A DNA stretch of 64,000 nt, taken from contig JASJOG010000091.1 in assembly GCA_030142905.1 (NCBI GenBank), positions 1,230,001 through 1,294,000 on the forward strand. The letters run 5' to 3'. Below, piece by piece: positions 3,568-25,828 of this stretch (its first letter is position 1; the number at the start of each line of letters is the position of its first letter). Origin of the DNA: Heliopora coerulea (Eukaryota; Cnidaria; Anthozoa; Scleralcyonacea; Helioporidae). A program made the translations under genes and the position numbers. The notes under the pieces were generated by a model. It did not search any database, was not told where the DNA came from, and was given only the letters and a program-made list of their open reading frames with translations.

Positions 3568-3719
3568 TTATTACATGATCGACGCGGTTTTCTTTGTTAT
3601 TCGCAGAGCTTTATTTAACATAAATACTTGTTAAAGGCCCAACTTTCTTCAAGCCAGGGGAGGGATTTGATATTCAGCAGGGAAAAGCGGGGTTGATGAA
3701 ATGAATTGAATTAGTATTC

Positions 3720-3806
3720 AAGGGTTGTATATAGATACATCCCTCCTACCAGGGTTGTATCTAGATAAAACCTTGCCAGGAGGGATGTATCTACATACAA
3801 CCCTAA
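3720..3806. repeat. Hairpin in YR element
   Basis: AGGGTTGTATATAGATACAT near 3720 is mirrored by the reverse complement of ATGTATCTACATACAACCCT ending near 3805. A third related unit (CAGGGTTGTATCTAGAT) sits between them. The same structure recurs at 25590-25676 in the other copy. Confidence 0.65.
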
Positions 3807-3965
3807 AATGTGTAATGAGGAATTCTACGCCAGATCTTGTCTCTATTGACAAGTACGAAAATTACACCAAGCTATACTATTCGTAATATCATAGTTCACA
3901 ACATTTTACTCAGACAATCAAAAACCAAACATTATTACATAGAACCATAAAACATCAAAATGAAT

Positions 3966-4436
3966 CTAAGCCTTAAAGTCATTCCCGACATAAAACGTAC
4001 AATTACTAAATTGAACGTCCTTCTTTTCACCACTTTTAAATCCACAATTCTCAATTTTTTTTTTTATTTTGCCTCCTATCTCACCACTGTCTGTTTCTCT
4101 CTTACTGACTTTTTTTCTTACTGACGCTTCTCCGCAGTACGAATTGACCTTATCACCTAACGGTAAATCAAACGCTTTCGACATCTCAACCTTCTTTTGA
4201 ACGGTTGGTCTCTGATATTGCTGTAAGGATCTGACATTTCTGTGCCCACTTCTTTCCATCATAAACTTGTCAGGAATTCCTTTTTCAAGGCCACGAGTAG
4301 CAGTTGTTCCCCTCATGCTGTGATTCGTGTAATACCCTTGAATTCCAGCTTCCCAGCACAGATTCTTGACCGTATCACCCAACGTATTATGGCCGACTGG
4401 TTTTGACGTGAACCTTAACTTGTGGGTTAAGAAACG
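3966..4436 (-). pseudogene. Tyrosine recombinase C-terminal catalytic domain
   Basis: The minus frame is open from about 4436 to the stop at 3966 and encodes about 156 residues. Near the start is PVGHNTL, then TNHSMRGTTATR, then MMERSGHRNVRSLQQYQRP. These supply the H-x-x-R, the second histidine (GH) and the nucleophile tyrosine (QQY) of the tyrosine recombinase fold. The spacing and the GTTATR signature are like Crypton/KIAA1958-type recombinases. The first catalytic arginine (box I) and the DNA-binding N-terminus are missing, and there is no in-frame ATG before the motif, so the protein is truncated. A basic C-terminal tail follows. Identical to the copy at 24960-25430. Confidence 0.7.
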
Positions 4437-4514
4437 TCAAAAGAATCTTTACAACAGAAAGCATTGTCTGCCATTGTTATTTTGAGAAAACCTTGTCAAT
4501 CATGTAATAAGTCA

Positions 4515-4673
4515 GTTAATCACCTCGAACGTCGGCTCTTAGCCAGATCCATCCCTCGGGAGCGTAGCCCTCGGAAAGCATCCCTTGGGGCCTACGGCCC
4601 CTCGGGATGCATTCCTCGGGTCACGTCCCTTCGGGATGTATCTGGCTAAGAGCCTCCGTTCTCGGTGATTAAC
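4515..4673. repeat. GC-rich palindromic cassette in YR element
   Basis: A 159-bp imperfect palindrome. GTTAATCACCTCGAACGTCG begins it and a diverged reverse complement ends it (CCGTTCTCGGTGATTAAC). The centre consists of repeated CCTCGGG / CCCTTCGGG / GGGGCCTACGGCCCC units that form nested hairpins. It is strikingly GC-rich compared with its AT-rich surroundings. It may be a MITE inside the YR element or its recombination-site region. Mirrored at 24723-24881. Confidence 0.65.
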
Positions 4674-4682
4674 TCTCACTTA

Positions 4683-4976
4683 CTTGGTGTAAGCGCTTTG
4701 GCAATCTCCATCGCTGGTATTATAACAACAATAGTCGTGGGTGCTCGGAAGGCCATATCTAAAGGTGCTAAAGTCACTAGTAAATTCGCTAAGGCTGTCT
4801 ATAACCTGGGAAAGAAACTGGGACCATTATTGGCACCAATATTAAATGTCATCGCTCAAGCATTGTCATGGGCTGCTAAAGGTCTTGCATGGTTGGCTTC
4901 TAATCTAAGGATTCTAGCACTTGCTTTTGCATGGTTTGTGTATGACCAACACAAAGAGAGGAGGAAGAAATAAAAT
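4683..4976 (+). pseudogene. Viral structural/membrane protein, C-terminal part
   Basis: The frame continues out of the YR copy and runs to the TAA at 4974. Two long hydrophobic stretches (about residues 1-22, with SIAGIITTIVVGARKA, and 60-92) flank a lysine-rich amphipathic segment. The tail is short and basic. This looks like the membrane-active C-terminus of a minor capsid or core protein of Polinton-like viruses. The N-terminal part is at 25829-27175 on the minus strand, with codon phase compatible across the insertion, so the gene was split first by the YR element and then by the inversion. Exact function is not recognised. Confidence 0.6.
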
Positions 4977-5053
4977 GTAGCTCTATATACACACAAATGA
5001 ACATAACATATTCAGATAAAGTTTAAAAATATTCATATTCATAAAATATATAA

Positions 5054-5263
5054 ATGAACTTTGAATGTTATATTTGTTTAACCAATGAAGCGAAAAGTTT
5101 ATCGCAATTAAACTGTAATAATTTATTCCACTGTGATTGGATCGATAAATGGTTACAACAAAAAGATACGTGTCCATTATGTAGAGCAGAATTCAATGAT
5201 TTCAATGAAATAGAAAAAACAAAATCGAAAAAAAATAAATTCGAAAAAATAAATTCGAAATAG
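5054..5263 (+). pseudogene. Viral RING-finger protein, degenerate
   Basis: A 69-residue frame begins MNFECYICLTNE and ends the finger with TCPLCRAEF, the first and last Cys pairs of a RING-H2 domain. RING proteins usually act as ubiquitin E3 ligases and are common in large DNA viruses. The central ligands are damaged: where C-x-H-x-F-H-x-x-C-x-x-x-W is expected the sequence is CNNLFHCDWIDKW, lacking one His and having the Cys out of register. A lysine/glutamate-rich coiled coil continues in another frame to about 5400, so a frameshift near 5220-5250 probably truncates a longer protein. The ATG follows an AT-rich TATA-like leader. Confidence 0.6.
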
Positions 5264-5403
5264 AAATCGATAAAATAGAACAAGAATGCATCATTAAAAT
5301 AGAGGAAAAAGATAGAATAAATGAAATAAAAAAATTGAAAATCAAAGTAGATGATTTACAATCAAAAGAGAAATCAATAAAGTCTAAATTAACATATACA
5401 CAA

Positions 5404-6640
5404 ATGAACAGAACTGAGAATGAGTTAGAACCTGGATTTAGACCAAGTCATATGAGCTCTATCAAGGGTGATAGAACTAGACATGTGATCACAATGAACC
5501 TTAATAAAGCATCACTTGGTGAAGAGCTATATAACTGAAATTCTCAAACTTAAACCAGACAGTTGTCTGGTTCCTGGGTCATTACACTTACTTTTCAATT
5601 TGAAATTCAGCAACACTAAAACTCGTTTCCTAAACAATCTTTCCAAACTTCTGCAAAAACGATTCCAAATCAGGCTGGTTGGTGAAACACTTTACGTTTA
5701 TAATGGTGAAAGTTTATACAGCGTTCATAAGGACCTTTACAAAACGAAAACTCAAAGGGATAATATGATTCAATATGGTATTGCATCTGAGAATCTTAGA
5801 AAGCTTATAAGTAAAGACGACTCTGGAGCAACAAGTGGAGATACAACAAAGGTATCTGAAAAACTTATGTTTGATATTTATGGTACAAAGCAGAAGATAT
5901 GTTTGGATAGGATTATATCGGACCATGGTTTATATGCTCCATTCCAAATGAATAACAATTTCAGATACATCATAACACCTCAATCTAGTGAAATTCTAGC
6001 GGCACAAACAGGTCAGACTGCTGGAACTTATTCTTTGGAAAATCTTGTGTTGGAATATGAAGCTATTGAAAACGAATCTATTGCCAGAAGTGTTTCATCA
6101 CTTTATAGCTCTGGTCGTTTTCTATCATATGAGCATGTAACTCTTATGAAGACAGTGGTATGGGCTGCTGCATCAACTTTAATTAATGAAAATATTAATA
6201 TTCCTCGAAAGTCTATGAAGGCAGTCGTTCTTTTGTTTACCAAAACATCTAGAACGGATAGTGGGGAGTTCATATATCCGAATATGACCAGTGTAAAGGT
6301 AACAATCGAAGGAGTACCAATTCAAGTATATTCACAAGGAATTCCAAAATCTCGTTTCTATGATGACGCTAAAAGACTATTAGGAAACAAGATGGAAAAA
6401 GATGAATTCATGACACCACAGAAGTTCTACAAGGACAAGTTTGCTCTTGTTGTTGATCTGAAGACAAATGAAGAGTTGGATAATACAGGACATGGTAAAA
6501 AGATTGTAAACACCCAAAATGGTATCCTACTGGAGATCAAAAAGACTACCCACACAGGAAACATCTACTGTAACATCTTTGTAGTATCTGATGGACTGGT
6601 TAATTTCTCAAACAATGATCTCCAAAGTATCCAATACTAA
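5404..6640 (+). pseudogene. Putative major capsid protein, frameshifted
   Basis: An opening frame from the ATG at 5404 (MNRTENELEPGFRPSH...) shifts near 5520 into a 374-codon frame ending TAA at 6638-6640. Together this is about 410 residues, rich in beta-prone segments, with no signal peptide and no membrane span. Position decides the call: it lies immediately upstream of the A32-like packaging ATPase, as capsid genes do in Polintons, adintoviruses and virophages. I cannot prove the double jelly-roll from sequence alone. An alternative is a penton or other abundant structural protein. The frameshift makes this copy non-functional. Confidence 0.5.
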
Positions 6641-6660
6641 TTATAATGTAATACATACAG

Positions 6661-7263
6661 ATGGAAACACTTTTTAACATGATCATTTGTGGCATGACAA
6701 ACTGTGGAAAAATCTTCTATTTGTTAAATATGCTGGAAAAACAATTTAATAAACATTTTGATTATATCAATTTAATATGTCCAACATTCTCATGGAATAA
6801 AACTTATCAAGAATGGAAATATATCAAAGATTCTGATTTGTTTGCCATAGAGTGTGATCAGGACAAAGTAGACAAAATACCACATATTGTACAGGAAATC
6901 TTTAAAGGGACCAATAGTTTGATTATATTGGATGATTGTGCAACTAGTCAGGATGTCAAAAATTGAACAAGTGAGTTAGTTAAATTAGCTTTTTCAGCTA
7001 GGCATTATAGTTTGTCAACAATTGTTATAACCCAGCAATTAACAAGTATATCTAAGCCTTATAGAGACAATGTAGCTTGAGTAATCACTTTTTATAATCC
7101 TGATGAAGATGATGTGAATGTAATCTTTCGTAGATACTTAGGTCATAGTACCAAAAGTGATAGGAAAACAATAATTGAAAAACTAAAGAATACCAAATAC
7201 TCTACACTAGTAATCAATCTACGCTACCCATTCGACTTTAAAATCAATACACCGCAAAAATAA
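6661..7263 (+). pseudogene. A32-like genome-packaging ATPase, two stops
   Basis: The frame starts METLFNMIICGMTNCGKI: the Walker A loop of FtsK/HerA-type viral packaging ATPases, here with Ile where the usual Thr/Ser follows the Lys. Walker B is SLIILDDC, about residue 90. Further on, LAFSARHYSLSTIVITQQL gives the sensor-like glutamine region. Total length is about 200 codons, the small size typical of Polinton and virophage ATPases that pump DNA into capsids. In-frame TGA codons at about 6964 and 7078 break it, both explicable as CGA to TGA decay. It starts 21 bp after the capsid candidate. Confidence 0.8.
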
Positions 7264-7285
7264 AATATGTGTCAATAGATAGAGA

Positions 7286-7848
7286 ATGCCAAGACGTAAG
7301 AATACAAAATCTGAAACCACTGATGAGTTATTCGAAGAAGTTACAACGGCAAAAAATATTGTAGACGAGGAAATCAATAATTTATTCAGTGATAATCAAA
7401 AACCTGGCAACGTATAACCAGAAGAAAAGGTTGAACCGAAATCTGATAACACTGATTATGAAAAAAAGAGAGATGAACTTTTAAAACTGGCTGAAAATGG
7501 AGATTTGTATAAATCTGTTGCTTATACAAAGAAGGCCAGTCAGAAGGTCATCAATAAACTATACACTGAATATGAACGAAAACGTATGGAAAAGGCTAAT
7601 GATTTCTTAACTGATCTATTAATAAGTAAATTTGTTAACGCTTTGGGAGGTTTCGATGCAATCCAGTCACCAGATGTATTGTCAAAAGAATTACAAAAGA
7701 TGAATTGTTAAAAAGAGGTGTTTACTCATTAGTCGAGAAAATAACACCATTTGTTCCATTCCTTGGAATTTTATAAGGAGGGATTACAACAGCAAAGCAT
7801 GTATACGACCATAAAAGTAAAAAACAGGAAGAAGAGCCCAAAGAATAG
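7286..7848 (+). pseudogene. Viral protein of unknown function
   Basis: ATG at 7286 (MPRRKNTKSETTDELFEE). The protein is acidic and lysine-rich at the N-terminus, helical in the middle (KKRDELLKLAENGDLYKSV), with a short hydrophobic stretch and a charged tail ending in TAG at 7846. A TAA near residue 44 and a frameshift near 7700 disrupt it. Its 3' 95 bp lie inside the sequence repeated at 45644-45770. Family not recognised; the position after the ATPase suggests a virion or core component. Confidence 0.5.
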
Positions 7849-7880
7849 GTTTTTTGTATTCGTCAATTAAAATGGGTATT
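7754..7880 (+). repeat. Candidate viral terminal repeat, copy 1
   Basis: These 127 bp recur at 45644-45770 at constant offset with only a handful of substitutions (TTCCATTCCTTGG... to ...AATGGGTATT). They are direct repeats in the present sequence, but after reversing the 4683-24713 inversion they face each other at the two ends of the viral block, as Polinton terminal inverted repeats would. Similarity stops abruptly on both sides. Confidence 0.6.
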
Positions 7881-7983
7881 ACCCGAGACGTTGACCTTCT
7901 GACCTCTGGGTGTTTAACACAATAGATAAAATACCAAACATCCATAACCACTAGCCTTGCCGAAAATAGTTTTTTTGTTGACA

Positions 7984-8640
7984 TTGTTCCATTCATAAGA
8001 AGGAACAAAGGAGTAGTACGAAACGAATTTCAACTACAACTCCCGTTTTTCACACTTCTATTTTTTTATTCACCATTAGGCTTTCCCCTTCATGGTTTTC
8101 CATAAATAGCATTTTTTAATTGGTAGCTAAAATTCGCACTTGAGTACGGTTTCCCTAGATGTCAAAAATTTCCCAGGTCTTCCAAAACTCCGCTAGCTTG
8201 ATTTTAAAGCCTCCAAAAAAGTGGGGTAACTTTCGGTCGGTTCTCATCAGTAGTATGAACTTTTTCTTATTTGGTTGTACGGGGAGGTGATTTTGTTAGA
8301 ATTTTTAGAATATGTAAAAATATATCATAAGACTATTAACTATACTTGGGATTGGTCGAAGGAAAAATTGTCGTATTAAGATGTTTTGATTTCAATTAAG
8401 GATAATAAGGTATGTACTGATACGTATTGTAAATCAATGGATACACATCAGTTCTTAGATAGTAAATCATGCCATTCGAGTCATTTTAAAATAAAACATA
8501 TTACGAAGAATAAAGACCTCTTGGAAAACTCAAGATATGAGTCAAAAAAAAGACGAGTATATGAGACTGTAATACTTCGACTTTATTACAAAGTCATCAT
8601 CAGACAGAATGATTTACAAAACAAGCCAAGGTCTATATAT
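7984..8640 (+). pseudogene. PLE fragments, scrambled
   Basis: 7984-8070 shares about 80 bp (AAGAAGGAACAAAGG...) with 45265-45345. 8310-8530 reads in plus frames TWDWSKEKLSY, then ISIKDNKVCTDTYCKSMDTHQF, matching the PLE reverse transcriptase thumb region (compare DVYSKPTDTHQYLHYGSCHP at 62720). Then the GAATAAAGACCTCTTGG phrase found at both palindrome arms follows. Several stops are present. 8070-8300 shows nothing recognisable. Confidence 0.45.
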
Positions 8641-8734
8641 ACAGTGTGAACAACGGAAGTTAGGAATCCTATACCTGAGATATTAACACGACAGAACGCA
8701 CTGCTAATTACTTATTAACTCGAGAGGAATTTAT

Positions 8735-9330
8735 TTACAAGACAAAAGTCATTAACAACAACTGACCCGACAATACTGATGTGTAAGATGACGTAAGATT
8801 ACTGAGAGAGGTGAGTATCAGATGCCAAAGGTCGACAAACTGATAGAATAATCGTAAGCAATTAAGTTGACAAACGAAAGAAAGACAAAGAAAAGGAAAG
8901 AAAATAGTCGGAGTGTGAACAACGTATAAAGTGGGAGATCGGAAATATATAAAGTGCGAAGCCGTTTGGTTGAAAAGTGTGAGCTCTTTTGAAGCTTTCA
9001 GTGCGGAATTGATTTCAGGCTTATTAAATTTAATATGGAGAGCTTCGATCAACAATAGTTTATTGGTGTTAGCAGATTTACTCGAGTAAAAAATTTTGTA
9101 GTTATTAAAGGTTAAAGTTCTGATAGAGTTAGGTGAATTCGAAAAGGAGGGGAGGTTATTAAGTCGATCGTATTGACCCTGTAAGTTGGCAAGAAACTGT
9201 GCGTGTTCACATTCAGTGAGGTGTTGTGCCATAGCACTGGTGTTAAGTTGAGTACAGTGTTCTGTCAGACGTTTGTAAATGCATCTATCGGTTTTGTTAA
9301 CATAAGTTTTCATGCATCCAAAACTATCAA
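8735..9330 (-). pseudogene. PLE GIY-YIG C-terminal domain (third family)
   Basis: A 192-residue minus frame begins VDSFGCMKTYVNKTDRCIYK and contains LTEHCTQLNTSAMAQHLTEC, then KSANTNKLLLIEALHIKFNK and PEINSALKASKELTLF. This is the C-terminal, histidine-containing half of a PLE-type GIY-YIG nuclease, ending in the usual 'EAL-x-I-x-x-x-KP-x-IN' signature. Beyond about residue 120 the frame is noncoding read-through. The upstream coding sequence crosses 9318, the outer edge of the big palindrome, which indicates that the left palindrome arm is the ancestral one. Confidence 0.6.
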
Positions 9331-9513
9331 CATTTACATATTATTTACCTTATTTCCTGTAATAAACGCCCCCGGCGTTTATTAAATTTTGAAGCAATTT
9401 GGTGTGACGTATATTAAACAATCGAAAAATTGGGTTGAAACGTTTCGTCAGAGGGAATTGCCATACGAAACAATATTGTAGTAAATAAATGAATTAAGGC
9501 AAGTTTCTATATA

Positions 9514-9555
<42 letters not shown>

Positions 9556-10288
9556 TAATCTGCAGACGTACGTTTCGCTGTAGTACAGCTTATCATTGCA
9601 GCTCGGGACGAACTTCGATTGGTAAGGAACATGTGTGCTCAAAAAGCTACTCGACCGGTGGGCATTGCTTAACGCTATTGGTTATCCTTATATATCCGTA
9701 GAGTGCTGAAGAACATCGAGATGTGGGAGCGTATATATATTTATATTTATATATATTATACGTTTAATGGAAATTTAAAATAAATGAACGGTTACTCGAG
9801 TTTCACGCTGTGAAGCGATCTTCAGACTAAAAATTAAAACTATAGACAGTGATATATATAAGCAAGTCAGTTGAAAAATTAACATACGAAATATATAACA
9901 TAAAGTGTTGTATCTATAGGGACCTATAAAAATCTAAATGGATAAAATATTCTATTTGCATCTATGGATAAAAATATCTATTTACATAAAAATATCTATT
10001 TGCATAAAAATTTTACACCATACCTACACTTTGTTACCAGCTCTGATCTTTTGTTCAATAAAAAACGTTTGTCTGCGTTTAAAATCAGCAGCTTTTCCGT
10101 TGTGCACAAGTTCATGAATTGCCCCCGCTCGTGTATGGTCTGGCATGCTTAAGAATTGACCATTCAATACTATAGTTTTCGTTTTTATTCTTCAAATCCC
10201 AAATGTATCTTGACAGTGCTGTACTGGTTGCATGCTTCTTGTGATTGAAAGAGTATATGTGATTGTTGAATCTAGTTTTAAATTCGCC

Positions 10289-10332
<44 letters not shown>

Positions 10333-11388
10333 AGTTTTTCTAAAACTTTCGTTTACCTTCTTCAAACTCATAACCCTCCTTAACATACTTATAAATTTGA
10401 CATCGTAATTTACCACATTTCCTCATCCCCTCATTATCATTTTCCTACCTTCTAACCTTCGAGCGGACTTACTCATCCTCAATGTTTCTAGGTCTTTTAT
10501 AAGCAACCATGGGCTTCTCCTCAAAGACCTTTTTCATGCCATTCGATACTTGTCATATTGGCCAAAGCAAATGTATTATCTTACCAATCCCCGATAACGC
10601 TGAGTGAAAATTCAAAACCAACCACATCCTCTTAACCAGTCTATTTTCCGTGGTATCCTGATAAACAATATCATCTCGTTTCTTTGCTTTGGCCTTCTTA
10701 AACTGATTTACAATCATACTCTCCCTTAAAACCTCTTTCAAGAAAAAACACTTTAAGTTCCTTAAGTCTTTTATTAAAAATCTCATCTGAATTACAAATA
10801 ACTTGCGTCTAACTCTCAATGCCTCCCCATGAGGAATTCCTTTCTTAACATCACTCAAAAACCACGACCAGCCGACAATATAAAAAAGTACAAAATAAAA
10901 CATATTCCGAAAAATAAAGACCTCTTGGAAAACTCAAGATATGAGTCAAAACAAGACGAGTATATGAGACTGTAATACAGAGTGTATCAAAAAAAAGTAG
11001 ACAATTTTGAAATGTCTAGAAAACTATAAATTTATCAAAATATCTCATGGATTTGTGTTAGTATAGGTACTTTAGCATCTTCAGGTCAATCTAACACTAA
11101 AAACAAACTGAAAATTTAACCGCGAAAAAAGCGAGAGCGGTTTGTGGAAGCCTAATTTTGAATGGCTTGTGCAAACATGAATGAAGGGTTTAAAATCCAA
11201 TTTGAATGGGCTGAAAGTATGGGTAATTTTTTACAAAGTATCAAAATTTCAGAAAATTTGATGAACATTAAGTCAGCAGCGCATCTGCGTAAACTTGGAC
11301 TTTTTTTCTGTTTAACTCGCAGCTCGCGTAACTTTTTTCATGCACGAATGATTTCATGCATGAGTGATTGCTCGGATGACTAAGCTAA
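9318..11388 (+). repeat. Left arm of giant palindrome (2071 bp)
   Basis: It is the reverse complement of 12751-14821. Mirrored features sum to 24139 at the ends and through the inner half. A 2-bp slip at the (TA)n tract near 10300 is cancelled by another at the (TA)n tract near 9530, so both arms have equal length. Mirrored open frames (116, 73 and 62 codons) translate identically. Content, outside to inside: AT-rich and GIY-YIG-bearing PLE debris, then the first 411 bp of a mariner element. Near-identity means recent formation, gene conversion, or an assembly error. Confidence 0.9.
10080..10920 (-). pseudogene. PLE C-terminal region in left arm
   Basis: The minus strand carries IPHGEALRVRRKLFVIQMRF, then NFHSALSGIGKIIHLLWPI, the RT-thumb-to-linker region of a PLE. 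After a (TA)n tract at about 10290-10328 comes the GIY-YIG tail (EFKTRFNNHIYSFNHKKHAT, then SIEWSILKHARPYTSGG). The microsatellite sits where the GIY-YIG start should be, removing the catalytic Tyr/Gly motifs. Mirrored at 13220-14060. The element at 63.0 kb is related (FHSALSGIGKIVDSL). Confidence 0.55.
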
Positions 11389-13161
11389 GAGTGGATAATC
11401 TTTTTTCATTCTTTTGTTTAATAAAAGGTTATGTTAATTACGCCTTGGGGGGATGCAAGAGGAATGTCCGGTTTAGGAATGGTGAATCAAATTCATTTGC
11501 TAGCTTGTTTTTCATATCAAACATTTGAAAAATAGTAAGACCGCAGTACACTCCACAGCAGAAAACTTTTTTGGTGACAGAATACCACTGTAATAACAGG
11601 AACGTGACGAGAGTGCTGGAAAGGTTTCGAGAACAGTATCCTGATGTGCGTTGTCCATCTAGAGCTGCAGTTTACAAGAATGTGGCTAAGTACAGTGCCA
11701 ATGGGATAAGTTGCAACCTCGACCGGGGAAGATCAGGACGTCTGAGAACAGCAAGGACTCAAGAAAACATCGAAGCCGTACGAAATGAGATCGAAAATCA
11801 GCGGCCAGGTGAGGAGAGAATAAGCGCTCGGCGGAATGGTCTTGATTTATCATTTGCGATCTTTAATTGTATCACAAGGTTGGACTTACGATTTCACCCA
11901 TTCCAAATGATACTGAGCCATCAATTGCTTGCAGGTGATTACCAACGGCGAGAACGGTTTTGCCAGGGCCTTCTGAACTGACCAGCGCGATTTCTTGAAA
12001 ACGTACTTATTGGAGACGAAGCAGGATTTGCCCTTAATGCCTCTGTCAACACCCATAACATCCGAGAGTACTGTCCCCGTGGTCAACAACCCATAGACTT
12101 TGAGTATCAGCGACATGATGAGCGTCACAAGGTAACTGTATGGGTTGGGTTGATTGGCAATGGAACTATCATTGGTCCTTTCTTCTTTCGGCAGAACATA
12201 GAGGGCGATAACTACCTGCAAATGATAAATGAGCAAGTGGTTCCTGAATTGAGGGAAATACGCCGTTTCGCTGCGAACGAAAATGGCCGGTTTCAGCGGC
12301 TTTGGTGGATACAAGACGGAGCACCACCTCACAGGAGACGAATTGTTTCTGAGCGTTTGGAACAATTGTTTGGAAACCGAGTTATTGCTTTAAATCGTCC
12401 CGTAGAATGGCCACCGAGATCTCCATTGGCTCTATTGGATTTTTTCCTTTGGGGTTACCTAAAGTCTAAGGTTTATGCCACTCCACCAGCAAACCTGGAC
12501 GAGAATGATGCGAGAAATCAACACGGAATGGATACTCTGAAACAGAACAGGCAAATGGTTCGTCGTGTCGTTTTTAGCATAAGAAGGAGGGCAAGACTTT
12601 GCGTGGAAAGAAACGGCGGACATGTTGAGGACTGAAGATAACTTTTGTAAATTCCGCTCTTGTTTGCTTTTGTATGCTTTAACGTTTTTGTGTAACAAAT
12701 AATTTTTTATGCAAGTTTCTAAATGTAATTTATTTTTGACAACACCATTGTTAGCTTAGTCATCCGAGCAATCACTCATGCATGAAATCATTCGTGCATG
12801 AAAAAAGTTACGCGAGCTGCGAGTTAAACAGAAAAAAAGTCCAAGTTTACGCAGATGCGCTGCTGACTTAATGTTCATCAAATTTTCTGAAATTTTGATA
12901 CTTTGTAAAAAATTACCCATACTTTCAGCCCATTCAAATTGGATTTTAAACCCTTCATTCATGTTTGCACAAGCCATTCAAAATTAGGCTTCCACAAACC
13001 ACTCTCGCTTTTTTCGCGGTTAAATTTTCAGTTTGTTTTTAGTGTTAGATTGACCTGAAGATGCTAAAGTACCTATACTAACACAAATCCATGAGATATT
13101 TTGATAAATTTATAGTTTTCTAGACATTTCAAAATTGTCTACTTTTTTTTGATACACTCTG
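10978..13161 (+). mobile_element. Mariner-type DNA transposon with 411-bp inverted repeats
   Basis: The ends read CAGAGTGTATCAAAAAAAAG inward from both sides and each is flanked by TA (10976-10977 and 13162-13163), the target duplication of Tc1/mariner elements. The inverted-repeat portion 10978-11388 is continuous with the larger palindrome arm. Transposase sequence fills the single-copy centre. At 2184 bp it is longer than a classical mariner because of the long inverted repeats. Transposase damage makes it non-autonomous. Confidence 0.85.
11571..12635 (+). pseudogene. Mariner-type transposase, one stop, damaged DDE
   Basis: A helix-turn-helix N-terminal region (LERFREQYPDVRCPSRAAVY, DUF4817-like) is followed by the DDE_3 catalytic domain. 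The first acidic residue is in LENVLIGDEAGF and the second in WWIQDGAPPH. The third should lie just after WPPRSP, but the sequence there is WPPRSPLALLDFFLWGYLK, one residue short and lacking the expected Asp. An in-frame TGA at 11979 splits the frame; the rest stays in phase to TGA at 12633, ending CVERNGGHVED. This enzyme cuts and pastes the element at TA sites. Start codon uncertain: the frame is open from a GTG-like position, so the true N-terminus may be lost. Confidence 0.8.
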
Positions 13162-13806
13162 TATTACAGTCTCATATACTCGTCTTGTTTTGACTCATAT
13201 CTTGAGTTTTCCAAGAGGTCTTTATTTTTCGGAATATGTTTTATTTTGTACTTTTTTATATTGTCGGCTGGTCGTGGTTTTTGAGTGATGTTAAGAAAGG
13301 AATTCCTCATGGGGAGGCATTGAGAGTTAGACGCAAGTTATTTGTAATTCAGATGAGATTTTTAATAAAAGACTTAAGGAACTTAAAGTGTTTTTTCTTG
13401 AAAGAGGTTTTAAGGGAGAGTATGATTGTAAATCAGTTTAAGAAGGCCAAAGCAAAGAAACGAGATGATATTGTTTATCAGGATACCACGGAAAATAGAC
13501 TGGTTAAGAGGATGTGGTTGGTTTTGAATTTTCACTCAGCGTTATCGGGGATTGGTAAGATAATACATTTGCTTTGGCCAATATGACAAGTATCGAATGG
13601 CATGAAAAAGGTCTTTGAGGAGAAGCCCATGGTTGCTTATAAAAGACCTAGAAACATTGAGGATGAGTAAGTCCGCTCGAAGGTTAGAAGGTAGGAAAAT
13701 GATAATGAGGGGATGAGGAAATGTGGTAAATTACGATGTCAAATTTATAAGTATGTTAAGGAGGGTTATGAGTTTGAAGAAGGTAAACGAAAGTTTTAGA
13801 AAAACT

Positions 13807-13852
<46 letters not shown>

Positions 13853-14585
13853 GGCGAATTTAAAACTAGATTCAACAATCACATATACTCTTTCAATCAC
13901 AAGAAGCATGCAACCAGTACAGCACTGTCAAGATACATTTGGGATTTGAAGAATAAAAACGAAAACTATAGTATTGAATGGTCAATTCTTAAGCATGCCA
14001 GACCATACACGAGCGGGGGCAATTCATGAACTTGTGCACAACGGAAAAGCTGCTGATTTTAAACGCAGACAAACGTTTTTTATTGAACAAAAGATCAGAG
14101 CTGGTAACAAAGTGTAGGTATGGTGTAAAATTTTTATGCAAATAGATATTTTTATGTAAATAGATATTTTTATCCATAGATGCAAATAGAATATTTTATC
14201 CATTTAGATTTTTATAGGTCCCTATAGATACAACACTTTATGTTATATATTTCGTATGTTAATTTTTCAACTGACTTGCTTATATATATCACTGTCTATA
14301 GTTTTAATTTTTAGTCTGAAGATCGCTTCACAGCGTGAAACTCGAGTAACCGTTCATTTATTTTAAATTTCCATTAAACGTATAATATATATAAATATAA
14401 ATATATATACGCTCCCACATCTCGATGTTCTTCAGCACTCTACGGATATATAAGGATAACCAATAGCGTTAAGCAATGCCCACCGGTCGAGTAGCTTTTT
14501 GAGCACACATGTTCCTTACCAATCGAAGTTCGTCCCGAGCTGCAATGATAAGCTGTACTACAGCGAAACGTACGTCTGCAGATTA

Positions 14586-14625
<40 letters not shown>

Positions 14626-14821
14626 TATATAGAAACTTGCCTTAATTCATTTATTTACTACAATATTGTTTCGTATGGCAATTCCCTCTGACGAAACGTT
14701 TCAACCCAATTTTTCGATTGTTTAATATACGTCACACCAAATTGCTTCAAAATTTAATAAACGCCGGGGGCGTTTATTACAGGAAATAAGGTAAATAATA
14801 TGTAAATGTTGATAGTTTTGG
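12751..14821 (-). repeat. Right arm of giant palindrome (2071 bp)
   Basis: The reverse complement of 9318-11388, ending with GATAGTTTTGG at 14821. Beyond this the right flank is unrelated to the left flank. On the left the PLE reading frame runs uninterrupted through the mirrored position, whereas here it breaks off at 14821. This arm therefore looks like the derived copy. Confidence 0.9.
13220..14060 (+). pseudogene. PLE C-terminal region in right arm
   Basis: The mirror image of 10080-10920, plus strand: the 116-codon frame ending in SALSGIGKIIHLLWPI at 13236-13586, then a (TA)n tract at about 13812-13849, then the GIY-YIG tail at 13849-14028. Same truncations as the left arm. Confidence 0.55.
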
Positions 14822-15245
14822 CAACGAAAGTAAAATATAAAGTATAGACCACTTCAATATTTTCACACAAACGTTCCCGCTCTATTAGCTCTTCAGGTGT
14901 AAATACATTATGAAAGTGGCAGCGTTATTTATAATTATCTAAACCAGGGGTGTCCAACCTACGGCCAGCGGGCCAAATGTGGCCCGCGGAGGATATTCAT
15001 TTGGCGCACCTTCGCAAAATCCTAAGTTTTATTATTACGTTAAATTGGTTAAATTTGCTAAACTGCCGCTAAACTTAAACCTGGCTGTGAGCCCTACGAC
15101 GGCTAAGATCAGTTTGGAATTGCTGAAGATCAGACGATTACGAGTAGAAACTTTGTCATCCGCCGTCCTTTTTCTAACCGCATGGAGTGCACGCGTGAAA
15201 TATTGCACAGGATCCACGAAATCGAGGCCAGTCAAGCATCATGCA

Positions 15246-17300: not shown

Positions 17301-17689
17301 CTATTATGACTTATGGAAAGGCATTAAAATTTAAAGTGTATAACTTACCATTTTACCAGATTTTTCTTGTAACTGTTTCAATTTACTTTAGCATGATTTC
17401 ATTAAAACAAAAAATAACCACTCATATCTTGTCCATTACATTGGATTAGTTCATTAGATGTGTGCCGATGACGTGGCGCCCCAAATATTGCTAAAATCGA
17501 ATTTGGCCGATTGGCCGAAAAGGTTGGGCACCCCTGATCTAAACCGTTATTTTATCTTATTGGAATGTGGTAGTTAATTACAGTGTTAGTCATGGTTGAA
17601 ATTTTACGGCTTGTTATTTATATGCTCATAAAATTAAGATAACGATTTACATGCACTTAAAGTATGTTTAGGTTAGGGTTAAGAACGTT

Positions 17690-18970
17690 GATAATATCAT
17701 TTCCTTTGATTGGCGATGTAGTCGGCTTTGGTCTTCGCACTGATAAATAGGCATAATTTTGAATTCACCGCCTCTACATGACACTAAGTGTTTGCTAATT
17801 GTCAAATGTCGGTATTCTTCGTGTCGTATTTGTTCTTTGTGTAGGTTACCCTTTTCCGCAAGTTTTCTGTTTGGCCAAGATAAAAGGAGTCACATGTTTC
17901 ACATAAAATGAAGTAGATAACGTTTCTGGCTTTACAATTCATTACTCATTTTATTTCCCAGGATTTTCCATTTTTGAGGTTAATCATATTTCCTGTGATG
18001 ATGTGTTCACATGTCCCGCACCCGGGTTCTTCGCTTGGTTTTACAGTCGGCTGAGATCTTTTACCGTTGTTTTAAATTTTTTGGTTGTCGTTGGCTTACT
18101 ATTAGATTCGTGTTGTCCATTATTCGTTTTAGTGATAGCGAATTGTCAAGGAATTTAATATTTTGTCTGATCCTTCCGCCTATCTGTGAATTGTTTGGGT
18201 TGTGCGTAATGATGAGTGGAAGTATTTGTTTATCGTTCAATCTGTCATTTTTCGGTGCTCTGAGGTTTTCTGATGGTATCGAAGTGCTTTTTTTTATTCC
18301 TTCGGTGATAATTTTCAGTGGTTAAATTTGTTGTAATAGGAATTCCATCAACTTTTGTAAGCGCCTGTCTCGAACCTCCGTTTTTGACACAATGCTACAT
18401 ATTCTTCTCTCAAGCGAGTAGGGTATGCTTTGTTTGATATGTTTCGGGTGGGAGGATTTAAAATATAGATATTGGTGTGCGTCGATTTCCTTATAAAACA
18501 TATTAGTGTGTTGTCTTGTACCTTTCTTGTAAAGCAGGACGTCGAGAAATGGTAGTTCTTTGTCGCCCTTTTCCACGGTAAACTTAATTTTTTTGCGTAA
18601 ACTATTTAACAACGAATGGTATCCGTTTAATTTGTCCTCGTTGTCATTCCATGGGAAGAAGCAATCGTCTAAAAATCTTTTAAACTTTTTCATAAGGCCT
18701 TCTTTGTTTACACCGCCGTAAGTTGTTTCGTATTTGCCATATAATTGCTTCTCCAAATATCCCATTACCAGTGTGGCATACTTCGGCGCCATTTTTGTCC
18801 CCATTGTGGTTTTTTGGAGGTGTTTATACAGATTGCCATCGAAATGAAACGTGTTTTCTTTCAGAACGGTTGAAATTCCTTCCAGGATAAATTCTTTGGA
18901 AAATAGTCGCATCAAGGATGTATGGTAGTTGTCTAACCAGTATTCTATTGCTATTAGATCTTGGTCGTGA
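17690..18970 (-). pseudogene. Penelope-like element, RT plus GIY-YIG
   Basis: A minus-strand 197-residue frame (18322-18915) contains QKTTMGTKMAPKYATLVMGY and KRFLDDCFFPW. These are the PLE RT palm motif with (F)LDD in place of YADD, then ELPFLDVLLYKKG and the HQYL-x-x-x-SSHPKH thumb motif. Downstream at 18.0-17.7 kb other frames give GCGTCEHIITGNMI and VIYFILCETCDSFYLGQTEN, the zinc-binding linker and GIY-YIG start. Stops separate the parts. PLE proteins copy their RNA at nicked DNA. 5'-truncated near 18970. Confidence 0.75.
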
Positions 18971-19189
18971 GTAATGTTCGTGTAAAGACTAAGTCAAAGG
19001 ATACCAAAAATGTGTTTTAGTCAATCTGTTACGGAATCTGATTAAGAAAGTCTCTGTCGTCTCGTATATAGCTGAGAATATAGCTCGTATATAGAAAATT
19101 GCATGGGGCCTACTAGTGGAGAAAGCAAAAGTTGAAGTTAATTCGCGAGAAGACTTCGAAAAGGACCATGATTAGGACGACGAAGATCG

Positions 19190-20060
19190 AAGTGATTTGT
19201 TAGACGTTCTACTAAATTGGGAACGGCTATTGGTACAAAATTTGCGCTGGCTTTTGCGAATATATTTATGGGAAATTTGGAGGAATCTTTCCTTCAGATA
19301 TGTTCATAGAAGCCATGGATATGGTGGCATTTTTTATATTATGAAACTATCAAGTTCACTTGAGAAACTTGTGAAGGTATAATATCATCTTTGGATGCTG
19401 TGGTTAGTATAAACGACAGGAGGTTTGTAGCTGATGTTTATCATAAACTTACAGATACACATCAGTACTTAAACTGTAAATCTTGACATCCTCCATACGT
19501 CAAAAAAGCCACTTTGTAATTCTAAGGAGATTTATGAATTTAGTGTGAATGAATTAAAGAGCTTTCTTATTAACAGAGGTTATAAGGTGGATTTTGTGGA
19601 CAGACAGATCAGTTGTGGCAATGGTCTTGATTCAAGTTGTCTTCTTAAGATTAGAGAAAAACTAAGTAAGAAACTTGGTTATGATCATGAAATAATTTTG
19701 GTTTTGGATTTTCATCCGACTTTGATGATGTTTACAGAGTGCTTCGGCATTTACAGAGTTTGGTTGATTTTTCATCGTCATTTAAGAAGCTTTTACCTGT
19801 TGTCCTTATGGCAAGCTTCAGAAAGCCTAAAAACTCGAAAGATTTATTGGTAAGAGCCAAAGTTAGACCGTTGGAGGAGAAAATTAGGGAATGTTTTGCT
19901 GTAGAAAGAACAGATGCCAGGTTTATAAATTTGTTAAAACAGGCCAGACGTTTATTGTTAATGTGGAGCAATGGTCTTTCTACAACAATCATGGATTTGA
20001 TTATGATTTCAGTGGGTAGTATATCTTATGACATTTAAGAGATGCAATAACCAATATGTG
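19190..20060 (+). pseudogene. Penelope-like element fragment, plus strand
   Basis: Frames near 19222-19300 read GTKFALAFANIFMGNLEESF (RT motif preceding the catalytic DD). 19395-19480 reads SINDRRFVADVYHKLTDTHQ, and 19739-20000 reads MLRHLQSLVDFSSSFKKLLP then SFRKPKNSKDLLVRAKVRPL, the RT thumb and linker of a PLE. Several frameshifts occur, and the catalytic DD segment is missing or unreadable. It abuts the fold-back PLE that follows. Confidence 0.65.
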
Positions 20061-20100
20061 AGGAGGACAATAATATCTTTTAGGTTTTGGTTTAATAATT

Positions 20101-20355
20101 TGATAGCCTGTCAAGGAAGACACTAATACAACGATCAAGAAAAACCTCGGGATAACCGTTACTGACAAGTGTCTTTTTCAGCTAAAGTATTTCAGAATGG
20201 AAAAGGTGGTATGACGAACAAATTTTAAAATAACGATCGAGAAGAGTGTAGACCAGACCACGTTTAAACGATAAGGGAATGAAACTATCAAAGTTTGTAA
20301 ATAAGCCAGTGAAAGAGGGTTTCCGGTAGACTGAGGTGGTAAAGCCGTCAGAGCG
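20101..20355 (-). repeat. Inverted 5' copy of PLE segment
   Basis: The reverse complement matches about 20795-21050 of the adjoining PLE with roughly 10% differences: the frame here reads GLFTNFDSFIPLSFKRGLVY just as the downstream copy does. PLEs often carry inverted partial copies at their 5' end, so this is part of the same insertion unit. Confidence 0.7.
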
Positions 20356-21553
20356 GTACCCTTTTACCAACATCCCGCTTGACGAGAGAATAGATATTAT
20401 AATTAATAAGGCTTTCCAAAACTCCACTTTATTCGAAGGTTTCTCGATTTCGGAACTCGGTAAACTCTTATGTTTATTAGTTAAGAATTGTCATTTTATT
20501 TTTAGTAACTCATTATATGAACAGGTAGATTGCGTAGGTATGGGTTCTCCCCTTGGTCCTCTTTTCGCAAATACTTTTTTCTCTTTTAACGAACTTGCTT
20601 GGTTGACTAATTGTCCATCTGAAATTAAACCTCTTTTCTTCCGGCGTTACGTTGACGATTGTTTTGTTATTTTCCGTTCTCGAGACCATGTGCGCCTTTT
20701 CGAAGATTATCTTAATTCACAACACCCCAAAATTTCGTTTACAGTTGTGAATTAGAGGACAAATCCACTCTACCTTTTTCAGATGTTTCGATTGACCGCT
20801 CTGAGGCTTTACCACCCCAAACTACCGAAACCCTCTTTCACTGGCTTATTTACAAACTTTGATAGTTTCATTCCCTTATCGTTTAAACGTGGTCTTGTCT
20901 ACACTCTTCTCGATCGTTATTTTAAGATTTGTTCGTCATACCACCTTTTCCATTCTGAAATATTTAAGCTCAAAAAGACACTTGTCAGTAACGGCTATCC
21001 CGAGGTTTTTCTTGATCGTTCTATTCTTGTCTTTCTTGACAGGCTATTTTGTCCACCGCCTCACGATACAAATGTTTCTCAAAAAACTGTTATCAATTTC
21101 TCTTTTCCCTTCAGAGGGTCTCACTCTCTACAGATCAGAACACAAATCATGAAATTGTGTTCTTCCGACTTCCCAGATGTGTCTTTACGCTTTATTTTCC
21201 AATCTGGCTGGCGCTTATCTAGTTTCTTTCCCTTCAAAGACCAGATTCCCATGTTAATGAGATCGCGTATTGTTTATAGCTACAGGTATCGATGCTGCGG
21301 TGCATCGTATTTGGGGCAAACACGCCGCCATTTACATACACGTATCTGGGAGCACATGGGAGTTTCGCCATTGACGGGAAAGAAACGGGCTATTCACTCA
21401 CTCTCAAGTGTTCTTGCTCATACTCATCGAACCGGACATAGCATCTCTCCCGACGACTTTACTATTGTTTCTTCTTGCCGTTCTAATTCAAATTTTGAAC
21501 TTCTTCTTCGGGAAAGCCCACTTATTTCTAAGCTCAAACCTCCGCTAAACTAA
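20336..21553 (+). pseudogene. Penelope-like element RT-endonuclease
   Basis: The first frame (20336-20755) holds NIPLDERIDIIINKAF, VGMGSPLGPLFANTFFSF and FFRRYVDDCFVIF: RT motifs with an intact YVDD catalytic box. After a stop at 20753, a second frame (20783-21553) carries GLFTNFDSFIPLSFKRGLVY, a linker, then the GIY-YIG nuclease YRCCGASYLGQTRRHLHTRI with the downstream H/E residues and an INSALKASKE-like end replaced by SKLKPPLN. The N-terminal RT is missing. 3' sequence to about 21780 includes AAGATGTTGCATGTCGCAAC, a PLE terminal motif. Closely related to the PLE at 42.7-44.6 kb. Confidence 0.8.
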
Positions 21554-22242
21554 AATATCTCTTCCACACCACTTTCTTTGTTTTTGTCATTATTTTTCTC
21601 GTAGCTTCTTATTTGTCACCTTATTTTGATTGGTCTATTATTTAATTAACCACATGTAAATAGATATATTATTCTCGCCAACCTTGTAATTTAACATTCT
21701 GAAGATGTTGCATGTCGCAACGAAACGTTAGCATTCAACTTATTTTAAAATATTTGAACTTGTCTTGCCTTGTTTTGATCATGGTTCTTCACCTGAAAAT
21801 TTTGAGCTGGGCTCTCACTTTTATCTTGCGACTTTCCATGAACCTTATTGATAAACATTTCCCCACTTCTAACCAGGGGCGGACAGGCCTATCGGGCGCT
21901 TGGGCATTGCCCGAGGGCCCAATGAATCGAGGGGGCAAACAAACGCTTTGAACTTTTCAAAAGAGAGTGGAGTGATCCTATTTTCTTGCAACATTAATTC
22001 AGCTTTGTTTTTTGTTGGGGTTTTTTTTTTAAGGTAAATAGTAAACACAGAATAGACAGACATCGTTTTGAATCTCTAATCTTCTGGAAAAGATTTTTGA
22101 TTATGGAATTCTAGAGCTTGTGTGAATCGGAAGTGTAGTTGCATTGACATTACCGAGAATTTCGGCAAATACTAAGAAAATGGAAATTGTACGGAGTGGC
22201 CGACATTTGGATAAATTTACAGTAACAAAATGAGTAATCATT

Positions 22243-24713
22243 ATGGATGAACAAGTAAATAAGCCAAAATATAAATATAAAAGTAGGGCCCAAAAGAGAA
22301 AAGAAAAGAGGAAAGAGCTTGAAGACTTGAAATCTATTGGAAATATCCAAAACTATTTCGGTCGATTGGTTTCAGTAGCGGAACGGTCGACTGAAAATGT
22401 TGCTGGGAGTGCATTGTCTCAATCACGTTTTGTGGCTGAACATTCAACTGAAAATGTTGCTGAGAGCGCGTTGTCTCAGTCAGTTTTAGTGGCTGAACAT
22501 TCAACTGAAAATGTTGCAGCGAGTGCGTTGTCTCAGTTAGTTTTAGTGACTGAACATTCAACTGAAAATGTTGCTGCGAGTGTGTTGTCTCAGTCGGTTT
22601 TAGTGCCTGAACATTCAACTGAAAATGTTGCTGCGACTGCGTTGTCTCAGTCAGTTTTAGTGATTGAACATTCAACTGAAAACGTTGCTGGGAATGCGTT
22701 GTCTCAGTCAGTTTTAGTGGCTGAACATTCAACTGAAAATGTTGCAGCGAGTGCGTTGTCTCAGTCAGTTTTAGTGACTGAACATTCAACTGAAAATGTT
22801 GCTGCGAGTGCGCCAGTTCTTTTGGAAAAGTGCAATATTTATGAACCTCCATGCAAACAAAAAAAAACAGGATGAGACCAATTATAGCCCTGAGCCAAAG
22901 ACTGCGGAGCATGAAGAAAAAGGAGAGGACATGCCTGACAAATATCCAGAAGATCAACCTCTACCGATCAGTATGGACGCACTTTTTACAAAATCAAATG
23001 TTGTATCCGAGCAAGCGTTCTGGAATTTTCACCCAAATCAGCCAAAAGAGGGGATAACATTCAATAGTAAGTTAACATATTTTCGAAAAAATATAAGCGG
23101 ACGTTGTGTTCAAAGAAAATGGCTTTCTTACAATAATGACAAGCAAGCATTATATTGTTCATTCTGTGTGATGTATGCCCCTGAAAAATCGCGGAAAAAT
23201 CAACTAATTCAAGGTTGCTCAGACTGGAGACATATTACTGTTCGAATAGCTGAACATGAAAAGTCACAGTGCCATCAACAATCAAGCGAAGCTTATTTTG
23301 TGAACATTAAGGGCCAATCAGTCAAACACAAGTTGATGCACAAACAGTTGTCTATTAGGCAAAAACAAGTTCTTGAACGGCGTGCTGTGATGAGGTGTGT
23401 GATTGACATCATATCCTTCATTGGCTTCCAAGCTCTCTCCTACAGAAGCAAACACTCAGAGGCAATAGTTGAGGTATTTGATGATGATGACGACAAAATT
23501 TTGTACAACAGAGAAAACTTTTTAGAAGCTGTGAAACTACTGGCTGATTACGATCCAACTTTACGAGCTCATCTGAAAAGAGTCACTGAAAAAGCAAAGA
23601 AACGTGATCCAACTAAGAGGGGACGCGGAAGCCTAGTAACATTCCTAAGTAAACCGACTGTGATTAAGATCTTTAACATCATCGGAGAAATTATCAAAAA
23701 AGTTGTAGTTAAAGATGTAAAAGATGCAGGCATGTTTTTCGTACAGTTGGATTTAACGCAAGATGTTTCTTTCCACGATCAGTGCGCAGTTGTGGTGAGA
23801 TAGGTAAAGGATGACAAGGCAAGGGAAAAGCTGTTGCGAATGGTCAACGTGACAGATTCCAAAGCCCAAAGTCTTCATGAGCTACTTGTGGCATCCCTAT
23901 CAGAAGTAGGGCTAAAATTGGACACATGCGTCGGAGATTGCTTTGATGGGGCTGCCAACATGAACGGAGCATATAATGGTCTACAAGCTTTACTGAAGCA
24001 AGTTCGTCCAAGTCACATACACACCTGGTGCTATGCTCATGTTTTAAATTTAGTAATTGCTGATGCAAGTAGCGTATGTATTCAAGCTATAAGTTTGTTT
24101 GGAATTTTAAACCATTTGGCAAAATTTTTTAGAGTCCTATAAAAGGATGAAGGTGTGGGAGGACCAGCTAAAAGAGACAACTGGGCAAGGAAAACTTCGA
24201 AAGCTGAAATTAGTTGGTCAGACTAGGTGGTAAAGCAGGGCAAGGCATTAAGGAAACTGTTTGGAAGTTACACTGGTCATACCAAAGAATTATATTCCAG
24301 TTTGGTTGTAACATTGAAGCATGTTGGTGAATCAGCTGACTTGTCGTTATCTGTTCGTCATGAAGCAACAACTTTAGGAGACAACCTCCGCAAGTTTGAG
24401 ACAGTCCTGGTTGCCTTTGTGTACATTCGCATATTTGACATCACAACACCAGTTTCTGACTATCTCCAAACATCTGGATTAGACCTGCTACAAGCATGGA
24501 GGATGGTAACAGATGTGACATTGAGGTTAAAAAACATTTCCAGAGACTTTGAATGTGTGTATGAACGAGCAGCTGAATTCACTAAAATCGTCAATACAAA
24601 GCTGTCTTCAGACGATATACTGGTCTCATCGGAGCTGTCTTCAATTCGCTCGACGCGAAGAATTCCTGGTGATGGTGATCAAAAAAAGCAGTTTGAAGTT
24701 GTCTACCAAAATA
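22243..24713 (+). pseudogene. hAT-1 transposase, N-terminal and catalytic part
   Basis: Starts MDEQVNKPKYKYKSRAQKRK. A 57-bp tandem repeat region follows, then a frameshift at the A-run near 22858. Next is a TTF-type zinc finger (RKWLSYNNDKQALYCSFCVM ... GCSDWRHITVRIAEHEKS) and RNase-H-like catalytic patches: FVQLDLTQDVSFHDQ, and after TAG at 23801 and another frame change, CFDGAANMNGAYNGLQ and HTWCYAHVLNLVI. Stops at 24140 and about 24225 precede the last frame, which ends in VVYQN at the YR junction. The C-terminus is at 2909-3567. ZMYM/TTF-hAT type. Confidence 0.8.
22387..22810 (+). repeat. 57-bp in-frame tandem repeats in hAT-1
   Basis: Seven 19-residue units of the form STENVA-x-SALSQSVLV-x-EH, each beginning at 57-bp intervals from 22387, then a partial eighth. 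The units differ at a few codons, mostly at the residue after VA and the one before EH. The antisense strand is also open through it, a by-product of the repeat. The repeat lies between the basic N-terminus and the zinc finger and is a linker expansion of unknown function. Confidence 0.9.
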
Positions 24714-24722
24714 TAAGTGAGA

Positions 24723-24881
24723 GTTAATCACCGAGAACGGAGGCTCTTAGCCAGATACATCCCGAAGGGACGTGACCCGAGGAATGCATCCCGAGGGGCC
24801 GTAGGCCCCAAGGGATGCTTTCCGAGGGCTACGCTCCCGAGGGATGGATCTGGCTAAGAGCCGACGTTCGAGGTGATTAAC
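24723..24881. repeat. GC-rich palindromic cassette, right copy
   Basis: Mirror of 4515-4673. Ends are GTTAATCACCGAGAACGG and CGACGTTCGAGGTGATTAAC around repeated CCCGAGG/CCCGAAGGG hairpin units. Confidence 0.65.
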
Positions 24882-24959
24882 TGACTTATTACATGATTGA
24901 CAAGGTTTTCTCAAAATAACAATGGCAGACAATGCTTTCTGTTGTAAAGATTCTTTTGA

Positions 24960-25430
24960 CGTTTCTTAACCCACAAGTTAAGGTTCACGTCAAAACCAGT
25001 CGGCCATAATACGTTGGGTGATACGGTCAAGAATCTGTGCTGGGAAGCTGGAATTCAAGGGTATTACACGAATCACAGCATGAGGGGAACAACTGCTACT
25101 CGTGGCCTTGAAAAAGGAATTCCTGACAAGTTTATGATGGAAAGAAGTGGGCACAGAAATGTCAGATCCTTACAGCAATATCAGAGACCAACCGTTCAAA
25201 AGAAGGTTGAGATGTCGAAAGCGTTTGATTTACCGTTAGGTGATAAGGTCAATTCGTACTGCGGAGAAGCGTCAGTAAGAAAAAAAGTCAGTAAGAGAGA
25301 AACAGACAGTGGTGAGATAGGAGGCAAAATAAAAAAAAAAATTGAGAATTGTGGATTTAAAAGTGGTGAAAAGAAGGACGTTCAATTTAGTAATTGTACG
25401 TTTTATGTCGGGAATGACTTTAAGGCTTAG
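24960..25430 (+). pseudogene. Tyrosine recombinase C-terminal catalytic domain, right copy
   Basis: The frame is open from 24960 to TAG at 25428-25430. It contains PVGHNTL, then TNHSMRGTTATR (H-x-x-R), ERSGHRNV (second His) and QQYQRP (nucleophile Tyr), followed by a lysine-rich tail. Box I arginine and N-terminal domain are absent and no ATG precedes the catalytic motif, so it is a truncated enzyme unless spliced to upstream sequence after insertion. Translation is identical to the left copy. Confidence 0.7.
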
Positions 25431-25828
25431 ATTCATTTTGATGTTTTATGGTTCTATGTAATAATGTTTGGTTTTTGATTGTCTGAGTAAAATGTTGTGA
25501 ACTATGATATTACGAATAGTATAGCTTGGTGTAATTTTCGTACTTGTCAATAGAGACAAGATCTGGCGTAGAATTCCTCATTACACATTTTAGGGTTGTA
25601 TGTAGATACATCCCTCCTGGCAAGGTTTTATCTAGATACAACCCTGGTAGGAGGGATGTATCTATATACAACCCTTGAATACTAATTCAATTCAATTCAT
25701 CAACCCCGCTTTTCCCTGCTGAATATCAAATCCCTCCCCTGGCTTGAAGAAAGTTGGGCCTTTAACAAGTATTTATGTTAAATAAAGCTCTGCGAATAAC
25801 AAAGAAAACCGCGTCGATCATGTAATAA

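Follow-up and report, generated by a model that had tools for sequence, protein, structure and literature searches.

A 20-kb inversion bounded by two near-identical Crypton derivatives in Heliopora coerulea

The inverted segment and the two genes split at its ends

We analysed a stretch of 64,000 nucleotides from the anthozoan Heliopora coerulea (assembly GCA_030142905.1, contig JASJOG010000091.1, positions 1,230,001 to 1,294,000 of the forward strand), hereafter the window. It holds two inverted copies of a non-autonomous Crypton, copy A and copy B, and between them a segment of 20,031 bp (4683..24713, no strand assigned). Two genes, that of a hAT transposon (hAT-1) and one of an integrated virus, are each divided between the two ends of this segment.

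The inverted arms, at 3568-4682 and 24714-25828, were reverse complements with 1,114 of 1,115 bases identical, and no match continued past either arm end. The coordinates agreed with a preliminary description made from the window's letters. That description called the copies identical; near-identity held and full identity did not, due to a sole mismatch at 3701/25695. It also took the whole arms as element, which applies to their bulk and not to the last 3 bases (4680-4682 and 24714-24716), these being target. Copy A thus spans 3568..4679 on the plus strand (1,112 bp, TTATTACA...AACTCTCAC), and copy B, with the one mismatch to A, spans 24717..25828 on the minus strand. From comparison with relatives, the TTA at 4680..4682 on the plus strand, right of copy A, belongs to the viral target site, and the TTA at 24714..24716 on the minus strand (TAA on plus) to the hAT target site.

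The 5' end and N-terminal part of hAT-1 occupied 21874..24713 on the plus strand, now its wrong strand, and the C-terminal part with the 3' end occupied 2616..3567 on the minus strand. As first described, the coding sequence stopped at 24713, and its C half began at 3567 on the other strand. The N part (plus strand, 22778-24712) had three in-frame stops, and its zinc-finger and DUF4371 matches were weak, below the curated cut-offs. The C part, running on the minus strand from 3565 to 2912, carried a hAT dimerisation domain (Dimer_Tnp_hAT, 7e-5, above the curated cut-off). A 57-bp tandem repeat, open in frame, lay within the 5' part of hAT-1 (22311-22867). Within the window, the C part gave nothing significant against hAT-2 (E 2.5 or worse) and a weak match with hAT-3 (E 0.002). 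Between the DGA and C-terminal motifs, which were chosen by eye, lay 1,226 nt in hAT-1 across the flip and 1,113 nt in hAT-2.

The hAT-type ends at 21874 and 2616 were both on the plus strand and become inverted once 4683-24713 is flipped; such same-direction ends are what a flip of one hAT-1 half predicts. Their alignment scored at about the 99.9th percentile of 5,000 shuffles, but another direct match in the same region outscored the pair 21874/2616, and no 8-base target duplication was found there at up to 1 mismatch (by eye, 5/8 bases agree). The end pattern CAGRGGCGGACWGGC was composed to fit both ends, and at up to 3 mismatches it gave at least 2 matches in 20 of 100 shuffles. As a sign of the flip, this signal inside the window is modest; the decisive comparison is the one with relatives across the genome.

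The viral gene was split in the same manner. Open reading frames (ORFs) and genome relatives placed its decayed N part at 25829..27097 on the minus strand (from 27.1 kb down to 25829) and its C part at 4683..4973 on the plus strand. The ORF at 26111-27097 stopped at 26111, and the remainder of the N part lay in another frame, with a stop. A split at 25829/4683, as claimed before, stands; given this decay, the wording that the gene stops at 25829 was loose. Two further viral genes followed the C part on the plus strand (5498..6966): an ORF of 380 amino acids (aa), which had no family match and which may be capsid-like, and a fragment of an A32-type ATPase (Pox_A32, 4.7e-6). The viral integrase and the N part are now on the minus strand, the C part, the 380-aa ORF and the ATPase fragment on the plus strand; flipping the segment makes the strand uniform.

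Relatives of both genes were sought in the 429.8-Mb assembly (769 contigs) that holds the window. The hAT stretch 24100-24713 gave 10 places, one being the window itself. The bases matching 24713 and 3567 were exactly 3 apart at six of the nine others (L032, L033, L035-L038), and the halves adjoined with small indels at two (L034 and L040); in L039 the N part stood alone in the fetched stretch. The preliminary description had named related copies with non-adjacent halves as evidence against a flip; at eight of the nine places the halves adjoined.

For the virus, a search with 4683-5300 gave 40 scored places among 144 candidates, of which 30 were fetched, window included. The N piece (25829-26828 on the minus strand) was also detected by blastn in 14 of these 30, although in three (L059, L060, L062) the N match was just 35-36 bases. 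The comparison used pieces only, no viral sequence being joined, and where a place had several matches the pair nearest to adjacency was taken. Alignment of the two viral halves to other viral copies, as had been suggested, found them adjacent in all 14 places showing both: same orientation, exactly 3 bases apart, with TTA in between in 11, CTA in 2 and TTG in 1. In the other 16 places, the window among them, blastn detected no N piece, and these places are uninformative in either direction.

Chance as the cause of the split halves was rejected, since six hAT and 14 viral relatives join the halves through the same 3-base gap. Flipping 4683-24713 reunites hAT-1 and the viral gene, as proposed earlier, and the relatives show both in this unflipped order. 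Because hAT and viral relatives keep the halves together, both genes were whole before two insertions and one inversion. The two copies, in opposite orientation, sat exactly at both breakpoints, and their flanks were exchanged relative to the empty sites in the relatives. Neither junction lost or gained a base, because the empty site in the six exact hAT and the 14 viral relatives holds just one 3-base triplet between the halves, which is present once per window site. As far as sequence comparison can establish it, 4683-24713 is confirmed as a real 20-kb inversion, now reversed between two Crypton insertions.

The element at the breakpoints and its target sites

A genome search with the element gave 40 scored places out of 467 candidates, 34 near full length and six matching only element positions 1-847. 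We examined 30 of the 34 and fetched the other six too. Because every place was found by similarity to the short derivative, the proportion of short versus long copies is biased. The left end TTATTACATGAT was constant in 30 of the 30 fetched copies. The right end AACTCTCAC was present in 29, with AACTCTTAC in L011, and the next 3 bases varied. Given constant ends followed by 3 variable bases, the element itself measures 1,112 bases, and the TTA closing each arm counts as target sequence. Two of the copies, L014 and L015, had zero differences and identical flanks on two small contigs; these are likely uncollapsed haplotypes or a duplicated contig.

All six of the 1-847 places diverged past 847. 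Four (L071, L072, L075 and L076) had their right end 2.34-2.44 kb from the left one and are longer Crypton copies with recombinase frames. L074 was a different short form of ~1.2 kb, and L073 reads N in that part. The 540-aa open frame of L075 matched DUF3504 (5.5e-33), QRICH1 (2e-20) and Phage_integrase (1e-11); its best PDB match was QRICH1 (1.4e-20). For the catalytic residues R-H-R-Y, the translations of the longer copies were inspected by eye. Copies A and B encoded only the C-terminal part of the integrase: a 156-aa recombinase fragment in A at 3966..4436 on the minus strand (Pfam Phage_integrase, 6.6e-10), with the earlier gene part deleted, as comparison with the longer copies showed, and the same fragment in B at 24960..25430 on the plus strand. 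In PHROGs the recombinase fragment matched integrase families, and the ATPase fragment had two weak matches; three other viral pieces had no match there. PDB, searched at 0.01, gave no match for the recombinase fragment or the hAT-1 N part.

The longer copies carry a DUF3504 and integrase frame, and DUF3504 is given as Crypton-derived in the available text of PMC3212892; on these grounds the element is an internal-deletion derivative of a ~2.35-kb Crypton, judged by its sequence. The label "YR element" (tyrosine-recombinase element) of the preliminary description was thus apt, both for the fragment in A and for the frame in L075.

A 26-bp inverted repeat (23/26 matches) paired the left end of the element with element positions 918-943, and this inner copy ended 172 bases before the right end of the 1,115-bp arm. 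At the right end of the element there was a near-palindrome (4514..4674, no strand assigned), 77% self-complementary over 161 bases; 4505-4682 folded at -61.9 kcal/mol vs a mean of -21.9 in 200 shuffles. A second hairpin lay near element positions 154-237. No terminal direct repeats were found in the 30 fetched copies and their flanks.

Target preference was read from 29 sites: 27 copies (L003-L030 minus L015) and the two unflipped window sites. L001, L002 and L015 were omitted from the counts, the flanks of L015 being the same as those of L014. In the left flank there was T at -9 in 21 sites, A at -8 in 23 and A/T at -7 in 28; in the right flank A/T at +1 in 27, T at +2 in 23 and A at +3 in 26. 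The family thus prefers TAW-N6-WTA, a dyad with a 6-base spacer. Among the 27 copies, which alone were used for motif scoring, 23 matched five or six of the six motif positions, vs 3.6% of positions in the surrounding flanks, a comparison that is not independent, the scored sites having also supplied the motif. The left 6-mer was target-derived and the right-end TCTCAC almost invariant across the examined sites; the element inserts at one edge of the 6-base spacer. A direct-repeat target duplication was rejected on the flanks of the examined copies and on the empty sites in the hAT and viral relatives.

Origin of the inversion

Copies A and B differed at a single site; across all pairs among the 30 copies the median was 19 differences. 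They shared five variants absent from the 28 other copies, private against these 28 only, and formed a clade with a FastTree support of 0.996 (30 copies). At 0.0057, the stem of this clade was close in length to a usual terminal branch (median 0.0048); the sequence that A and B share thus resembles that of a single copy which had aged as the others did. Of the 40 scored places, A and B lay closest together, with 0.08 pairs this close expected at random. Some unlinked pairs also differed little in sequence (L023/L024 with 3 differences, L020/L021 with 4, L022/L025 with 5), which weighs against such closeness as unique; what supports the kinship of A and B is the set of private variants together with the tree and a spacing of 21 kb. 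Together these show the two to be sisters among the copies compared. One of them was probably copied from the other, or overwritten by it through gene conversion. The single difference and the five shared variants speak against A and B having been inserted independently from the family pool and not homogenised afterwards.

The inversion probably arose by a crossover between the inverted sister copies, with host homologous recombination as the most likely agent. The 1,112-bp non-autonomous Crypton had cut both a hAT transposon and an integrated virus, each of them old, with no target duplication. One copy would have been made recently from the other, 20 kb away and in the opposite orientation, or been overwritten by it through gene conversion. 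A reciprocal crossover between the inverted copies would then flip 4683-24713 and swap their flanks, and an exchange anywhere within the element would yield the present order. Host homologous recombination, the simplest agent and the one given for Galileo in Drosophila (PMC2775673), would have acted on 1.1 kb of near-identical inverted DNA, and a break at the terminal palindrome may have initiated the crossover.

Several observations weigh against this account. The inversion was read from one assembled haplotype, so that a mis-assembly or a rare allele is possible, and a stage with both copies in unflipped order was not seen. A and B differ at one site, which would hide any chimera, the proof of homologous recombination in Drosophila; being near-identical, they do not lend themselves to that proof. 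Finally, the available text of PMC2775673 gives identical copies as a mark of hybrid-element insertion.

We weighed whether the assembler had flipped the segment between the two near-identical inverted repeats, identical inverted repeats being a classic cause of such errors. Against this, the copies are just 1.1 kb, and the 429.8-Mb assembly is in 769 contigs, of which the largest seen has 9.9 Mb. It also passes through a palindrome of 2.08 kb and 99.7% identity elsewhere in the window, and the window contains no N. Contig sizes and the crossed palindrome suggest a long-read assembly able to span a 1.1-kb repeat. A mis-join is unlikely as the cause of the flip, indeed the least credible of the explanations weighed here. 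A second near-identical copy of the hAT stretch, which would be the other haplotype, was not found in the genome search with 24100-24713, the next best match being 95%.

Instead of the host machinery, a Crypton tyrosine recombinase encoded by a more complete copy at another place may have made the crossover, most simply between the identical right ends; the preliminary description had named both agents. Simple tyrosine recombinases invert DNA between inverted sites, TCTCAC + TTA was identical at both right junctions, and the L075 frame, with its DUF3504, QRICH1 and integrase domains, could represent such a source; chromosome inversions caused by an archaeal tyrosine recombinase are known (available text of PMC5495485). 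A and B, however, hold only the C-terminal part of the recombinase, and their left-junction 6-mers differ (CGAAGA vs GAGAAC). As the copies are near-identical throughout, no evidence puts the crossover at the element end rather than inside it, and we regard this agent as rather improbable. A single aberrant transposition, hybrid-element or replicative, could have made the second copy and the inversion together from one copy. It was kept under consideration because PMC2775673, in its available text, names identity as a hybrid-element mark, and near-identical sisters with the changes of one aged copy are the pattern given there. The same text describes hybrid-element insertion for the ends of two transposon copies transposing together, whereas the present element does not duplicate its target and has the look of an insertion by a recombinase. 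The identity of A and B is accounted for equally well by gene conversion or by a local hop, and the one-step origin seems a little more doubtful still than a recombinase-made crossover between existing copies. More speculative again, and in our estimate improbable, is a wider proposal, in which animal Cryptons would serve as sites of inversion: their recombinase, acting in trans on the constant right ends of short derivatives, would copy these to nearby sites while the donor is kept and would flip the DNA between inverted copies, thus turning Crypton pairs into switchable stretches of eukaryotic chromosome. If this proposal is true, a strand-biased exchange would explain both the near-constant TCTCAC and the target-derived left 6-mer. 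A crossover by host homologous recombination is the reading we favour over these.

Neighbouring features and related systems

The virus encodes an rve integrase, a Bro-N gene and the A32-type ATPase fragment, and is presumably Polinton/adintovirus-like. The first two lie in a viral block at 31000-41400, together with a weak VRR_NUC match. Scans of viral contigs gave no relative, whether made with viral pieces (380-aa ORF, N part, ATPase fragment), with the hAT-1 N part, with the recombinase fragment or with two end patterns. Short 95% repeats (7744-7880/45634-45770 and 7993-8077/45269-45353) were found near both edges of the viral block; their orientation fits inverted viral ends once the segment is unflipped, but their order is swapped.

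The palindrome inside the inverted segment had arms of 2.08 kb (9318-11394 and 12745-14821), 99.7% identical and 1,350 bp apart, and is unusually long and near-perfect. It surrounds a broken gene, presumably mariner-like, with a DUF4817 match and a weak DDE_3 match. Repeated units at 41728-42449, partly in inverted orientation, held three tRNA-like matches and are probably a cluster of tRNA-derived short interspersed nuclear elements.

The arrangement resembles the Galileo inversion 2z3 of Drosophila buzzatii, in which copies in opposite orientation also bound the inversion, their flanks are exchanged and the uninverted sites are known. Galileo differs, as far as the available text of PMC2775673 describes it, by 7-bp target duplications and chimeric copies; here the element is a Crypton, without duplication, and the copies are near-identical. 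Like the animal Cryptons (CryptonA/CryptonI) in the available text of PMC3212892, the present family has a DUF3504-type recombinase, no terminal direct repeats, no target duplication and short non-autonomous derivatives. Those Cryptons are described there as lacking terminal repeats and inverted terminal repeats, and Crypton boundaries as difficult to characterise. The present family has a 26-bp inverted repeat (one copy terminal, one subterminal), a terminal palindrome and a preference for TAW-N6-WTA, which that text does not mention for animal Cryptons.

With the pTN3 integrase of Thermococcus, an element's tyrosine recombinase flips chromosome segments, as considered here; according to the accessible part of PMC5495485, those inversions are archaeal and shown by experiment, whereas a recombinase flip in the present case is eukaryotic and only possible. 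SE-6945/SE-6283 and Tn1549 likewise use a tyrosine recombinase, and their crossover regions are short (6 bp in SE-6945, 5-7 nt in Tn1549); an SE can circularise and leave no unoccupied donor site, and Tn1549 takes AT-rich targets (available text of PMC9345347 and PMC5871717). Both are bacterial, and the likeness to the Crypton derivative is one of description. Among titles and abstract openings on Crypton inversion, eukaryotic recombinase or replicative inversion and Crypton targets, we found no Crypton-bounded inversion and no TAW-N6-WTA.

The locus presents a young, base-exact inversion bounded by a mobile element, and natural relatives elsewhere in this genome show both empty sites. The same copies yield a rule of integration, open to testing, for an animal-type Crypton: TAW-N6-WTA, no target duplication, and insertion at one spacer edge. 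If it is true that the enzyme drove the flip, inversion by a tyrosine recombinase would occur naturally in a eukaryotic chromosome.

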